Of a stretch of 64,000 bases of DNA, positions 3,952 through 8,467 are shown in pieces (position 1 is the stretch's first letter; the number at the start of each line of letters is the position of its first letter). A program made the position numbers and the translations under genes. The notes below the pieces were generated by a model. The model saw only the letters and a program-made list of their open reading frames with translations. It did not search any database and was not told the origin of the DNA. Source of the stretch: Alphaproteobacteria bacterium (GTDB lineage Bacteria; Pseudomonadota; Alphaproteobacteria; Rs-D84); contig SUUN01000002.1 of assembly GCA_015062495.1 (NCBI GenBank), forward strand, positions 285,210-349,209, given 5' to 3'.

Positions 3952-4617
3952 ATGGTCAAGAAAACATCAGAAAATCAATCTGTAAAAAACTATAAAAAAA
4001 CAGGCATTATTGCGGCAATTGTGATTGCTGTGGCGGTTTTGGGCGTTTGGGCGGTGTCGGCGCTGAATTCTAATTCGGGCGCATCTGTATCTGACGCGGT
4101 CGCAGTTGTCAGCGAAGATGCCGCAAACGGTGCAAATCTGCGCATTGCGGTTGTTCGCATGGATGCAATCCAGACAGATGCCACCGCACTAAAAGACCTG
4201 CGCACGCAAAAGGAAAAATATGAAAATGAATTGCGCGATGAATTGACCCGTGATCAAAAGGCATTAGAAAAAGAAAAGGCCGAAATTGAAAAGTCCCAGG
4301 ATGTTTTATCCCGCGAAGCATTACAGCGCCGCGTTGTTGACTATCAAAACAAGGTTACCAAACTGCAACGTGATTTGACGGAACGTGCCCAGTCAATTGA
4401 AATGTCGTATCAAAAGGCCTTGAATGAATTGCAGTCCAAGCACCTAGACCCGGTTATCGAAGGTATTATTGCCAAAAAGAATTTGTCCCTGGTAATTGAT
4501 GGCCGTATGGCACGCACAGGTGCAGATGTCGCGAATCTGGACATCACAGACGAAGTGATTAAGGCATTGGATAAAAAAGTATCCAAGGTCAAGATGGAAA
4601 CACCAAAAGGTTTCTAA
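3952..4617 (+). CDS. skp: Skp/OmpH-family periplasmic chaperone
   Basis: This is a 221-residue Skp/OmpH-like protein that would hold outer-membrane proteins in the periplasm. A basic N-terminus precedes a hydrophobic segment (about residues 18-38, GIIAAIVIAVAVLGVWAV). This could be an uncleaved anchor, or a signal peptide cut after AVSA. RIAVVRMDAI at about residues 64-73 is the usual start of the Skp domain. A long charged coiled coil (about 85-150) follows, then DPVIEGIIAKKNLSLVIDGR, typical of the family's second strand. It has its own terminator. It is not next to bamA or lpxD as in E. coli; lpxD and fabZ lie about 5 kb away on the other strand. Confidence 0.85.
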   Translation: MVKKTSENQSVKNYKKTGIIAAIVIAVAVLGVWAVSALNSNSGASVSDAVAVVSEDAANGANLRIAVVRMDAIQTDATALKDLRTQKEKYENELRDELTRDQKALEKEKAEIEKSQDVLSREALQRRVVDYQNKVTKLQRDLTERAQSIEMSYQKALNELQSKHLDPVIEGIIAKKNLSLVIDGRMARTGADVANLDITDEVIKALDKKVSKVKMETPKGF

Positions 4618-4641
4618 AAAAATCCCCGTCTGGGGATTTTT
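4618..4641 (+). terminator. Terminator of the skp-like gene
   Basis: Stem atcccc/ggggat with a short loop and a T run, directly after the stop codon. Confidence 0.88.
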
Positions 4642-4652
4642 ATTATATAAAC

Positions 4653-4681
4653 TTGCATTTTGTATAAATCCATTGTAATCT
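4653..4681 (+). promoter_or_regulatory. Candidate promoter of the ileS leader
   Basis: A -35-like ttgcat (4653-4658) and a -10-like taatct (4676-4681) are separated by 17 bp. Transcription would start near 4688, just before the leader peptide ATG. Confidence 0.55.
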
Positions 4682-4689
4682 GTATTGCG

Positions 4690-4722
4690 ATGAAACAAAC
4701 AACAATAATTATTATTAAATAA
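4690..4722 (+). CDS. ileS leader peptide MKQTTIIIIK
   Basis: This ten-codon ORF encodes MKQTTIIIIK. Four consecutive isoleucine codons (ATA ATT ATT ATT, 4705-4716) are followed by Lys and a TAA stop. It starts 107 nt upstream of ileS, behind a plausible promoter and ahead of mutually exclusive hairpins and a terminator. A run of the regulating amino acid in such a peptide is the hallmark of ribosome-mediated attenuation in Proteobacteria, as for pheST, thr, ilv and his leaders. The inferred role is to stall ribosomes when Ile-tRNA is scarce. No good Shine-Dalgarno sequence is seen. Confidence 0.8.
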   Translation: MKQTTIIIIK

Positions 4723-4728
4723 ACGGCA

Positions 4729-4771
4729 ACTGCGCTTCTGCGGTGGCTGGGGCGCATGTGCGCCCTTTTTT
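4729..4771 (+). promoter_or_regulatory. Attenuator of ileS: pause hairpin, antiterminator, terminator
   Basis: Three pairings can be drawn. Hairpin A joins 4729-4734 and 4739-4744 (loop cttc). The antiterminator joins 4731-4738 and 4749-4756 (8 bp including two G-U). The terminator joins gggcgc 4750-4755 and gcgccc 4760-4765 (loop atgt), followed by tttttt. Hairpin A and the terminator can coexist; each excludes the antiterminator. A ribosome stalled on the Ile codons would cover the start of hairpin A and favour the antiterminator. The pairings are visible in the sequence; the mechanism is inferred. Confidence 0.75.
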
Positions 4772-4796
4772 AATATAAAAAACAGGACTAAAAAAC

Positions 4797-7700
4797 ATGG
4801 CATACACAAAAACAGACCCACGTCCAGATTTTACAGCGGTCGAAAAACAAATGCTGTCCAAATGGGCATCTGAAAACACATTTCATAAATCACTGGATAA
4901 AACCAAGTCTGGTCGTCCATTTTCATTTTATGATGGGCCACCGTTTGCAAATGGCATGCCACACTGGGGGCATTTGGGCGTATCGGTTGTCAAAGACATG
5001 GTTGCGCGTTTCCAGACAATGTCTGGCCGTTATGTGTCGCGCGAATTGGGGTGGGATTGTCATGGTCTGCCGGCGGAAAATTCTGTTGAAAAAAAGCAAA
5101 ATCGCGCCGCCAAAGATATCGTTGCCACCGACGGCATCACGGCATTTTGTGATATGTGTCGCACCGACGTTATGACATATACAAATGAATGGAATCACTT
5201 TATCACCCGCATGGGTCGCTGGGTTGATATTGGTGATGGCTATGGTTATAAAACCATGGATAAAAACTATATGGAATCCATGCTGTGGACATTAAAAGAA
5301 TTATATAACCGCGGCCTGTTATACAAAGATTACAGTGTTAATCCATATGACTGGGTCAACGGTACGGTTGTATCAAATTCCGAAGCGTCCCAGGACTATC
5401 GTGAAATTGTTGATGATGCGGTGACGGTTTGGTTCGAACTGGAAAATGGCGACCGTGCGATTGCATGGACAACAACGCCATGGACACTGCCGGCAAACAG
5501 TGCGCTGGCTGTAAATCCAAACATGACATACCTGCGCATGCGTGACGCCGATGGTGCGGTTTATGTTATTGCAGAAAGTCGCCTGCGCGCATATGAAAAA
5601 CAGTTCGCTAACGCAACTGAAATTGGTCGCGTGACGGGGGCAGAACTGGCGGGCATGCATTACACGCCACTGTTTCCATACTATGCAGGGACATCTGATT
5701 TGCTGTATCAAATCATCCCGGCGGACTATGTGTCTGACGGCGACGGCACAGGCATTGTTCATATTGCGCCGGCATATGGGGCTGACGACTTTTGGGCGGC
5801 AAAAAATATCGACCCAAAATTCCCAGTTTTGTTAAATGTTGACGCATACGGTAATTTTGATGAAACGGTTGTTGATTTTGCCGGAAAAAACATCTTTGCG
5901 GCAACACCTGCGATAATGGATTGGCTGAAAAACAATGGTCGCTTGGTTAAGAAAGAACAATATAAACATTCGTACCCATTTGGCGATCGCTGCAAAGAAA
6001 AGTTAATCTATCGCGCAACTGATTCTTGGTATATCGACGTACCAAAAATCAAAGACAAATTATTGGCAAATAATGCACGTGTTAACTGGACATCGGCCGG
6101 CGAACGTTTCCGTTCATGGATTGAAAATGCGCGTCCATGGTCAATATCGCGCAATCGTTTCTGGGGTATGCCATTGCCAATTTGGGAACGCGACGGCGAA
6201 TATATGGTATTTGGTTCAATCGCAGAATTGGAAGAATTCTTTGGCGTTGAAATCAACGACCTGCACCGTCCAACATTGGATAAATTGACCAAAGACGGTT
6301 GGACACGCATACCAGATGTTTTGGATTGCTGGGTTGAATCTGGTTCTATGCCGTGGGCGTCCCTGCATTATCCGTTTGAAAACGTGGATAAATTCAATGC
6401 GACATTCCCCGCCGACTATATTATCGAAGGCCAAGATCAAACCCGTGGTTGGTTCTATGCGTTGATGGTGTTGGCGACGGCGTTATTTGATAAACCTGCG
6501 TTCATGGCGGTATCGGCCAACGGTATGGTGGTGGATGAAAATAAAAAGAAATTCTCGAAATCACTGCGCAACTTTGTGAACCCAGAACAACAGATTGAAC
6601 AGTATGGTGCGGACGCAGTACGTCTGTTTATCTTGGGCTCTAATTTTATGAAGGCTGAACCTGTTCCCGTGGATAAAGAAGGCAAGGTCTTTGTTGAATC
6701 AACCAAGACAATCCAAACGCCACTGTGGAACGCATATCATTTCTTTACATTGTACGCGAACGCCGGCAATATCACCGCGCATGAAATGACGAATCCGACA
6801 AATCCGTTGGATAAATATATCCTGGCAGAATTGAATATTCTGACCGATATTGTGCGCGATGCATTGAACGAATATAAACCAGACGTTGCCGTCAAAGAAT
6901 TTGTTCGATTCTTGGATATCTTGAACAATTGGTATATCCGTCGTGGTCGCGCGCGTTTCTGGGACGAAGAACAGGCGGCATTTGACACGCTGTACACAGT
7001 GCTGACACGTTTCTGTCGTGTTTTGGCATCGTTCGCGCCATTTGTATCTGAATATATCTATACGAATCTGACGGGCGACGAATCTGTGCATTTGACGTCG
7101 TTCCCTGAATCTGAATCTGTTGACAGTGCGATTGTAAATGACATGCGCCGTGTACAAATGATTGTGTCAACCGGCAAACAACTGCGCGAAGCGTACAAGT
7201 TGCGCAACCGCCTGCCGTTAAATTCACTGACGGTTGCGGGTGCGAATATGCCCGAATACGCTGATATTATCCAGGACGAACTGAACGTAAAATCGGTTGT
7301 GTTCCGTGAAACATTTGACGATGTCGCAGATTCGTTTGTGTATCTGATTACACCAAAAATCGGCGCGCGCCTGGGTGGTGCGTTAAAGGAAATTATTCCA
7401 GCGGTAAAACGTGGTGAATACGAATTGTCGGGTGACAAATTGATTGCCGCAGGACACGAATTGAACGCGGACGAATTTGAAATGCGCCTGAATATGCGTG
7501 ATGGTGTGACGGGCGCCGCATTGCCGGATAATACGGCCGTTGTTGTCCTGGACACAGATGTTAATTCTGAACTGGTCGCCGAAGGGTTGGCGAACGATGC
7601 CCTGCGCTTTATCCAAGACACGCGCAAGGCCGCCGGTCTGGACGTATCTGACCGTATCGTTTTGACATATTCGGCGGACCCGGCCCTGGCAAACGCGTTG

Positions 7701-7820
7701 GAAAACCATAAAAAGCGCATCATGCACGAAGCCCTGATTGTTGAAATGGTTGCGGGCGACGGTGAATACGAAACCGAAATCGAAGGCTACAACCTGAATA
7801 TTTCCGTAAAGAAAGCATAA
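4797..7820 (+). CDS. ileS: Isoleucyl-tRNA synthetase, long eukaryote-like type
   Basis: This class I synthetase charges tRNA-Ile. The HIGH motif is HWGH at residues 56-59 and the KMSKS motif is KFSKS at 585-589. The opening SFYDGPPFANGMPHWGHLG and the ELGWDCHGLPAE stretch are typical of the long eukaryote-like (type 2) IleRS rather than the E. coli type. Length is 1007 residues against 938 in E. coli. A full editing (CP1) domain follows (AWTTTPWTLPAN, GTGIVHIAPAYGADD). The C-terminal part matches the anticodon-binding domain and extended tail of type 2 enzymes. It overlaps no gene and is followed 2 nt later by nth, so the two are co-transcribed. Type 2 enzymes are often less sensitive to mupirocin (family knowledge; not tested here). 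Confidence 0.97.
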   Translation: MAYTKTDPRPDFTAVEKQMLSKWASENTFHKSLDKTKSGRPFSFYDGPPFANGMPHWGHLGVSVVKDMVARFQTMSGRYVSRELGWDCHGLPAENSVEKKQNRAAKDIVATDGITAFCDMCRTDVMTYTNEWNHFITRMGRWVDIGDGYGYKTMDKNYMESMLWTLKELYNRGLLYKDYSVNPYDWVNGTVVSNSEASQDYREIVDDAVTVWFELENGDRAIAWTTTPWTLPANSALAVNPNMTYLRMRDADGAVYVIAESRLRAYEKQFANATEIGRVTGAELAGMHYTPLFPYYAGTSDLLYQIIPADYVSDGDGTGIVHIAPAYGADDFWAAKNIDPKFPVLLNVDAYGNFDETVVDFAGKNIFAATPAIMDWLKNNGRLVKKEQYKHSYPFGDRCKEKLIYRATDSWYIDVPKIKDKLLANNARVNWTSAGERFRSWIENARPWSISRNRFWGMPLPIWERDGEYMVFGSIAELEEFFGVEINDLHRPTLDKLTKDGWTRIPDVLDCWVESGSMPWASLHYPFENVDKFNATFPADYIIEGQDQTRGWFYALMVLATALFDKPAFMAVSANGMVVDENKKKFSKSLRNFVNPEQQIEQYGADAVRLFILGSNFMKAEPVPVDKEGKVFVESTKTIQTPLWNAYHFFTLYANAGNITAHEMTNPTNPLDKYILAELNILTDIVRDALNEYKPDVAVKEFVRFLDILNNWYIRRGRARFWDEEQAAFDTLYTVLTRFCRVLASFAPFVSEYIYTNLTGDESVHLTSFPESESVDSAIVNDMRRVQMIVSTGKQLREAYKLRNRLPLNSLTVAGANMPEYADIIQDELNVKSVVFRETFDDVADSFVYLITPKIGARLGGALKEIIPAVKRGEYELSGDKLIAAGHELNADEFEMRLNMRDGVTGAALPDNTAVVVLDTDVNSELVAEGLANDALRFIQDTRKAAGLDVSDRIVLTYSADPALANALENHKKRIMHEALIVEMVAGDGEYETEIEGYNLNISVKKA

Positions 7821-7822
7821 AA

Positions 7823-8467
7823 ATGAAACTGACCCCGCAAAGATATTTTGAATTAGTACCCCCGACCGTTGATATGACAATACGGTCGGAACTGTACCAT
7901 ACAAATGAATTTAACTTTGCGGTGGCGGTTATTTTATCGGCCCAGGCAACGGATAAAAAGGTGAACGAGGTTACGCCCGAATTATTTCGCGTTGCACCAA
8001 CACCACAAAAAATGTTGGCATTGGGTATTGATGGGTTAAAAGAACATATCCGCGTTATTTCTTTCTTTAATAACAAGGCGAAAAACATAATCGCGCTGGC
8101 GGAACGTCTGGTCGCCGAAAATATGACCGACACATTTCCGGATAAATATCACAACCGCGATGAATTGATGAAATTACCCGGCATTGGCCAGAAAACTGCA
8201 AATGTCGTCTGTAATGTTCTGTGGGGGGCGCCAAACATTGGTGTTGATACACATGTGTTTCGAAACGCACACCGATATGGCTGGGTCGATGACGCGGACA
8301 ACACGCCCGAAAAAGTCGAGTCAAAATTATTAAAAATAATTCCGCGCAAATATCACCCAATTGTAAACCATGTGATGGTTCTGCACGGTCGATACGTGTG
8401 CAAGGCATTGCGCCCCGCGTGTGAAACATGCCCCGTCGCCAAATGGTGTCCAGTGGCAAAAAAATAA
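7823..8467 (+). CDS. nth: Endonuclease III
   Basis: This 214-residue DNA glycosylase/AP lyase removes oxidised pyrimidines. The helix-hairpin-helix LPGIGQKTANVV carries the catalytic Lys (about residue 124), and VDTHVFR carries the catalytic Asp (about 142). The C-terminal 4Fe-4S cluster has the expected spacing C-x6-C-x2-C-x5-C (CKALRPACETCPVAKWC). It starts 2 nt after ileS stops, so it probably shares the ileS transcript and its attenuator. Confidence 0.96.
   Translation: MKLTPQRYFELVPPTVDMTIRSELYHTNEFNFAVAVILSAQATDKKVNEVTPELFRVAPTPQKMLALGIDGLKEHIRVISFFNNKAKNIIALAERLVAENMTDTFPDKYHNRDELMKLPGIGQKTANVVCNVLWGAPNIGVDTHVFRNAHRYGWVDDADNTPEKVESKLLKIIPRKYHPIVNHVMVLHGRYVCKALRPACETCPVAKWCPVAKK

Follow-up and report, generated by a model that had tools for sequence, protein, structure and literature searches.

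The region preceding ileS in an alphaproteobacterium of the order Rs-D84 is, with a probability of roughly 88%, a ribosome-mediated transcription attenuator that senses the charging of Ile-tRNA and controls ileS and probably the adjacent gene nth. Its sequence conservation in relatives strongly suggests that more isoleucyl-tRNA synthetase (IleRS) is made when charged Ile-tRNA is short.

The isoleucine leader and its locus

The leader lies in Alphaproteobacteria bacterium assembly GCA_015062495.1 (contig SUUN01000002.1, positions 285,210 to 349,209 of the forward strand). We refer to this stretch of 64,000 nt as the window and number positions within it. The host genome, of ~900 kb (0.9 Mb), is that of an alphaproteobacterium near ‘Ca. 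Enterousia’, and its nearest named relatives are Alphaproteobacteria assemblies from gut metagenomes, including ‘Candidatus Enterousia onthequi’. Enterousia has been placed in the order Rs-D84, and its genomes are mostly smaller than 1 Mb; the order is reported to be without complete amino acid biosynthesis pathways (PMC12306168). The relevant features are as follows.

4653–4681, + strand: predicted leader promoter, with a −35-like TTGCAT (4653–4658), a 17-nt spacer and a −10-like TAATCT (4676–4681)
4690–4722, + strand: leader ORF, MKQTTIIIIK and stop (ATG AAA CAA ACA ACA ATA ATT ATT ATT AAA TAA)
4705–4716, + strand: putative regulatory Ile codons ATA ATT ATT ATT, a run conserved in relatives
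4724–4749, + strand: hairpin A (anti-antiterminator) of the minimum free energy fold, pairing 4724–4727 with 4746–4749 and 4729–4733 with 4740–4744
4731–4756, + strand: antiterminator, pairing 4731–4738 with 4749–4756
4750–4771, + strand: intrinsic terminator, with stem 4750–4755:4760–4765, loop AUGU and T6 at 4766–4771
4797–7820, + strand: ileS, isoleucyl-tRNA synthetase (TIGR00392; 766 bits, cut-off 621)
7823–8467, + strand: nth, endonuclease III (TIGR01083), starting 2 nt past the ileS stop

The encoded IleRS is closer to the eukaryotic-cytoplasmic or MupA-like type. Its second-best NCBIfam models are MupA (NF000257) and MupB, and the PDB entries that match it best are those of cytoplasmic IleRS and of bacterial IleRS of 1032–1080 amino acids. 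The nth assignment carries a score of 204.9 bits (E of 9e-61), slightly below the curated cut-off of 211.7. The original prediction placed nth under the leader as well, and such co-control is plausible in the window, but the nth motif follows ileS in only 75 of the 104 related loci with enough flank.

The ten-codon ORF with four Ile codons in a row ahead of ileS, on which the original prediction was built, is read directly in the sequence. We collected ileS loci from relatives and aligned 89 leaders, among which the number of consecutive Ile codons is four in 82, five in two and three in five. The run is nearly always followed by a single Lys or Arg codon (sometimes Glu or Gly) and then the stop codon. 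A covariance model (R1) was constructed from the 89 leaders with the antiterminator pairs only; of the 201 genomes of the order scanned with it, 165 contain the leader. Among the genomes listed, matches occur in about 145 of 156 from the genus and in 20 of 27 from the other genera of the family; the 18 listed from other families of the order gave no match. Of the negatives within the genus, at least two (G007 and G032) are also without a full-length IleS match. All but a handful of the ileS loci carry an ORF ending in an Ile run, with the same stems and T-run after it. Leaders from the other genera of the family have diverged, and they retain IIII or III together with the stems. Two loci (L060 and L111) have an ileS gene without such a leader and carry a tRNA gene just upstream instead.

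No terminator-type leader was found before ileS in the other families of the order or in 30 other alphaproteobacteria. A few of these ileS loci have Ile-containing leaders of a different build. Four from other alphaproteobacterial families (L209, L207, L113 and L130) end in ..IIIP* or ..RIP.. and place a CCCC..GGGG hairpin around the stop codon, resembling the thrS and serS leaders described below.

Three mutually exclusive pairings

Hairpin A, the antiterminator and the terminator share bases such that each excludes its neighbor, and they occur in the order originally proposed, ending in a T-run ahead of ileS. The terminator stem comprises 7 base pairs when 4749–4766 is counted. The fold of the leader has a z-score of −2.85, with one of 200 shuffled sequences being as stable; this score, together with the recurrence of the same ORF and hairpins in more than 100 related genomes, indicates a structure beyond chance.

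The antiterminator and terminator are strongly preserved. The central four base pairs of the antiterminator can form in all 89 leaders, and two of these pairs show double changes, while the core pairs of the terminator stem are kept in 88–89 of the 89. The three strands involved read GCGC/GCGC/GCGC in 83 leaders, GCAC/GTGC/GCAC in three and ACGC/GCGT/ACGC in one, with two leaders in intermediate states. Concerted changes in three strands are expected if two exclusive helices share one strand (4749–4756), and this triple compensation thus argues that both helices are preserved. Antiterminator positions are paired in 96.3% of alignment cells, versus 26–62% for controls in which the arms were slid. 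The covariation score was reached by none of 500 shuffles, although kinship among the leaders inflates such shuffle tests, and more weight therefore falls on the triple changes and on the control with slid arms. The covariation as a whole consists of few independent changes, since the sequences of the arms hardly vary.

Hairpin A is variable in both length and sequence, and it is less regular and less conserved than the other two stems. Because indels make pairing at fixed positions a poor measure for this element, we used an alignment-free test in which 5′ parts were swapped between leaders. Native combinations of 5′ and 3′ parts fold to −11.48, versus −10.42 for swapped combinations (standard deviation 0.18), and none of 200 permutations was as low.

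Aligning the ileS leaders of related genomes had been suggested as a check, with relatives lacking both the Ile run and the pairings counting against the attenuator. The opposite was found: both are retained, the pairings compete and compensate, and the codon changes are synonymous for the most part.

A T-box or another known RNA family was also considered for this leader. The T-box model RF00230, which comprises conserved stems and the AGGGTGGNACCGCG motif, gives no gathering-level match in the window and none at E values up to 10 within 4600–4820. Across the known families, the leader has no match at gathering level and only chance-level ones at E values up to 10, and this candidate was rejected.

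Predicted promoter and start of the leader transcript

The predicted promoter is weak by consensus, and a strict sigma-70 scan of this region in the window gives no match. In the 62 related leaders that have no adjacent tRNA gene, the best −10-like hexamer ends 7–8 nt before the leader ATG in 39, and an A is present at −12 in 87%. An SD-like motif occurs in only six of 87 leaders and is absent from the other 81. The −10 spacing and the near-absence of SD-like motifs suggest that the leader ORF is probably leaderless, with its AUG at or beside the 5′ end of the transcript.

In 25 of 87 related loci, a tRNA gene ends no more than 60 nt upstream of the leader, which suggests that the tRNA and the ileS leader are co-transcribed there. 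The 5′ end of the leader may in these cases come from tRNA processing. Examples include L024, L025 and L041, and several of the upstream genes encode tRNA-Thr with anticodon CGT.

Alternative explanations for the conserved elements

The Ile run might be conserved as a DNA or RNA site for a protein rather than as codons. The sequence AATAATTATT is palindromic, and within the genus the run is highly conserved at the nucleotide level, with ATA ATT ATT ATT found unchanged in 51 of 89 leaders. However, a comparison of 108 leaders (432 codons) reveals that differences from this sequence gather at third codon positions (73, versus eight at second and five at first positions), and that 68 of the 73 third-position differences keep Ile; since these leaders are related, the differences are not independent events. 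Moreover, usage of ATC in the run differs between genera, its frequent occurrence outside the genus breaks the palindrome, and the frame from the leader ATG to its stop is kept in relatives. The codon-position pattern rules against a binding site, to which we assign very little probability. It is somewhat less improbable, though still unlikely, that the leader and stems are real and that control is exerted through translation of the leader in general, by initiation or coupling, with the Ile codons being incidental. An AT-rich leader is likely to contain AT-rich codons, and a leaderless start could make the leader sensitive to initiation in general. Against this, three to five Ile codons precede the cognate synthetase gene in more than 100 leaders, which represent at least ten genera, and changes within the run are mostly synonymous. 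In addition, the two strands of the window together hold just two short ORFs with four successive Ile codons, one of which is the ileS leader.

The third alternative is a plain terminator that ends an upstream unit, with ileS transcribed from another promoter. Such a terminator could serve the tRNA gene at the 25 loci noted above. However, the T-run lies 25 nt from the ileS ATG, with no evident space for a promoter in between, and the gene upstream of the leader in the window has a terminator-like hairpin of its own (4621–4642). A plain terminator also has no need for a conserved ORF, an Ile run or a competing antiterminator, and we regard this explanation as very improbable. Attenuation in response to Ile-tRNA charging is the reading that we develop below.

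Ribosome position and a model for attenuation

The distances between the reading frame and the stems are nearly fixed. The antiterminator arm GCGC begins 11–13 nt from the leader stop codon in 88 of 89 leaders and 17–19 nt from the last Ile codon in 87 of 89. Toeprints place the front edge of a ribosome waiting at a stop codon at about +11 to +13 from the stop. A ribosome at the leader stop would therefore just reach the antiterminator arm, and one stalled on the last Ile codon would extend no further than the base of hairpin A. According to the original prediction, a ribosome stalled on the Ile codons would cover the start of hairpin A; this holds for the last one or two of the codons but not for the first two or three, given an edge at about 11 nt beyond the codon. 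The geometry thus points to blocking of the antiterminator arm by a terminating ribosome at least as much as to blocking of hairpin A by a stalled one.

From the ORF, its codons, the pairings, their conservation and this spacing, we infer a start site, translation, stalling and read-through in the following order. Transcription would begin at the leader AUG or slightly upstream of it, and translation of the ORF would start at once. When Ile-tRNA is plentiful, the ribosome would proceed to the stop codon and, with its front edge at about +11 to +13, would cover the 5′ arm of the antiterminator, such that the terminator would fold and the transcript would end before ileS. When charged Ile-tRNA is scarce, the ribosome would stall on the Ile codons, leaving the antiterminator arm free and possibly obstructing the base of hairpin A. 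The antiterminator would then fold ahead of synthesis of the 3′ arm of the terminator, and polymerase would read into ileS. If the leader is not translated, hairpin A would form first, resulting in termination by default. Sensing of charging at the synthetase would be sensible in an order that does not have complete amino acid biosynthesis, and making more synthetase may be one of the few remaining responses of this lineage to isoleucine shortage.

Ensemble calculations clarify which of these steps depend on timing. In the intermediate transcript, before the 3′ arm of the terminator emerges, the antiterminator accounts for 91% of the ensemble, and for 99% with a ribosome on the last Ile codon. 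With a terminating ribosome, the antiterminator fraction is 0.89 for an edge at stop+11, 0.40 at +13 and 0.03 at +15, such that the outcome hinges on 2–4 nt of the assumed footprint. Once the full terminator is present, equilibrium favors it in every ribosome state; with the ribosome on the Ile codons, the terminator fraction in the full transcript is 0.68–0.81 on average and 0.99–1.00 for the leader in the window. Equilibrium folding alone yields no antitermination upon Ile stalling, and we rejected it as a complete account of how the leader switches. The decision to antiterminate must therefore be kinetic and be made during transcription, which is the main gap in the attenuator model. The more than 100 leaders with fixed spacing across the family make the ribosome-position model directly testable.

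Leaders of other aminoacyl-tRNA synthetase genes

Short ORFs with cognate codons also precede other synthetase genes, which were named by Pfam matches and by reading of N-termini. The thrS leader peptide of the host genome, MKMFGLFFTTTTTTPLGV (L137, G000:C2 around 167–169 kb), contains six Thr residues, and the thrS leaders of the host and its relatives (L137 and L147–L176) have up to seven consecutive Thr codons. Their conserved C-terminus, P[LA]GV, is encoded by a CCCC-NNN-GGGG hairpin with no terminator after it. Nearly all relatives within the genus have this leader, and a shorter form occurs in some other families of the order. Between leader and thrS lies a second promoter-like sequence, TTGCG..TATAAT, whose −35 element is overlapped by an inverted repeat. 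A Ser-rich serS leader, MKFSFVFFSSFSSSPLGE, has the same CCCC..GGGG hairpin (L138 and L177–L206) and occurs in part of the genus.

The metG leader of the host genome, MRMQI (L272:845–922), has a variant, MKRMQI, in L265 (G216). It is followed by AACGGG..GACGCC..CCCGTT..GGCGTC and a T-run (T7 in the host). As at ileS, a −10-like element directly precedes the AUG, and this leader is a candidate for a second terminator-type attenuator. Further short ORFs with cognate codons are found before cysS (MTIRFINFYCCR, L273, read from the sequence), hisS (MCNKNVFFVIFHHARAGEY, L141, ending in ..FHHARAGEY), trpS (MMKCLDIFSYVNCWRIAA, L143) and lysS (MKLFIKRLN, L146). The aspS leader (L145:3254–3513, minus strand) matches the T-box model RF00230 over its full length with AGGGUGGCACCGCG intact; the score of 37 bits (E of 7e-7, close to 1e-6) is below the gathering score of 93, and this leader is possibly a T-box in an alphaproteobacterium. 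For tyrS and pheS of the host genome, no cognate leader was found.

Whether the ileS attenuator is part of a network, in which many synthetase genes are controlled by cognate leader peptides, we consider evenly balanced. Such a network would include the terminator type (ileS and metG), the CCCC-GGGG type without a terminator (thrS and serS), cysS, hisS, possibly trpS and lysS, and a possible T-box at aspS. If so, the CCCC-GGGG type would be a second regulatory layout beside the terminator type. Together with the other leaders of the host genome, the ileS leader suggests that these reduced alphaproteobacteria may generally rely on attenuation to control their synthetase genes, much as Firmicutes rely on T-boxes.

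Comparison with known attenuators

The T-box is the usual regulator of ileS in Gram-positive bacteria. In several Actinobacteria, ileS is under a translational T-box; in the same comparative genomics study, the Streptomyces genes trpS and leuS were predicted to have classical attenuators (PMC1262725). The latter would also act on synthetase genes through leader peptides, for other amino acids and in another phylum. Such attenuation is likewise known or predicted for pheST, which the original prediction named together with amino acid biosynthesis operons of Proteobacteria. Leaders of hisS appear in a screen for premature terminators across many bacteria, and ileS is absent from the main text of that work (PMC2965389).

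The literature searched, mostly papers open without subscription, contains no published terminator-type attenuator of ileS. The view that no ileS example had been described needs one qualification, as a translated leader before ileS has been named: ribosome profiling of Caulobacter crescentus lists ileS and trpS leader CDSs, of which the ‘ileS leader CDS (CCNA_03934)’ serves only as a negative control for an assay, with no regulatory role or mechanism described (PMC4117421). The two cases share a small ORF, translated in Caulobacter and predicted here, before ileS in an alphaproteobacterium. A further alphaproteobacterial parallel is trpL-trpE(G) of S. meliloti, where the trpL transcript begins at the AUG of its leader ORF and is leaderless by experiment (PMC7298713). 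That system controls a Trp biosynthesis gene and was shown experimentally, whereas the ileS leader is predicted.

The ileS leader also closely resembles the attenuators of trp, his, ilv and gammaproteobacterial pheST. It shares with them the cognate codons in a short ORF, the competing hairpins 1:2, 2:3 and 3:4, and an intrinsic terminator just before the gene. Unlike them, it would act on ileS in a reduced genome from an order reported to be without complete amino acid biosynthesis, and its ORF is probably leaderless. Furthermore, segment 1 of the ileS leader lies wholly 3′ of the stop codon, and the spacing from stop to antiterminator appears critical. The ileS leader would belong to the known trp/pheST type of attenuation, with a target for which we found no earlier description and an unusual lineage. 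It would add ileS to the genes controlled by leader-peptide attenuation, and would bring this kind of control to a group of bacteria reported to be without complete amino acid biosynthesis.
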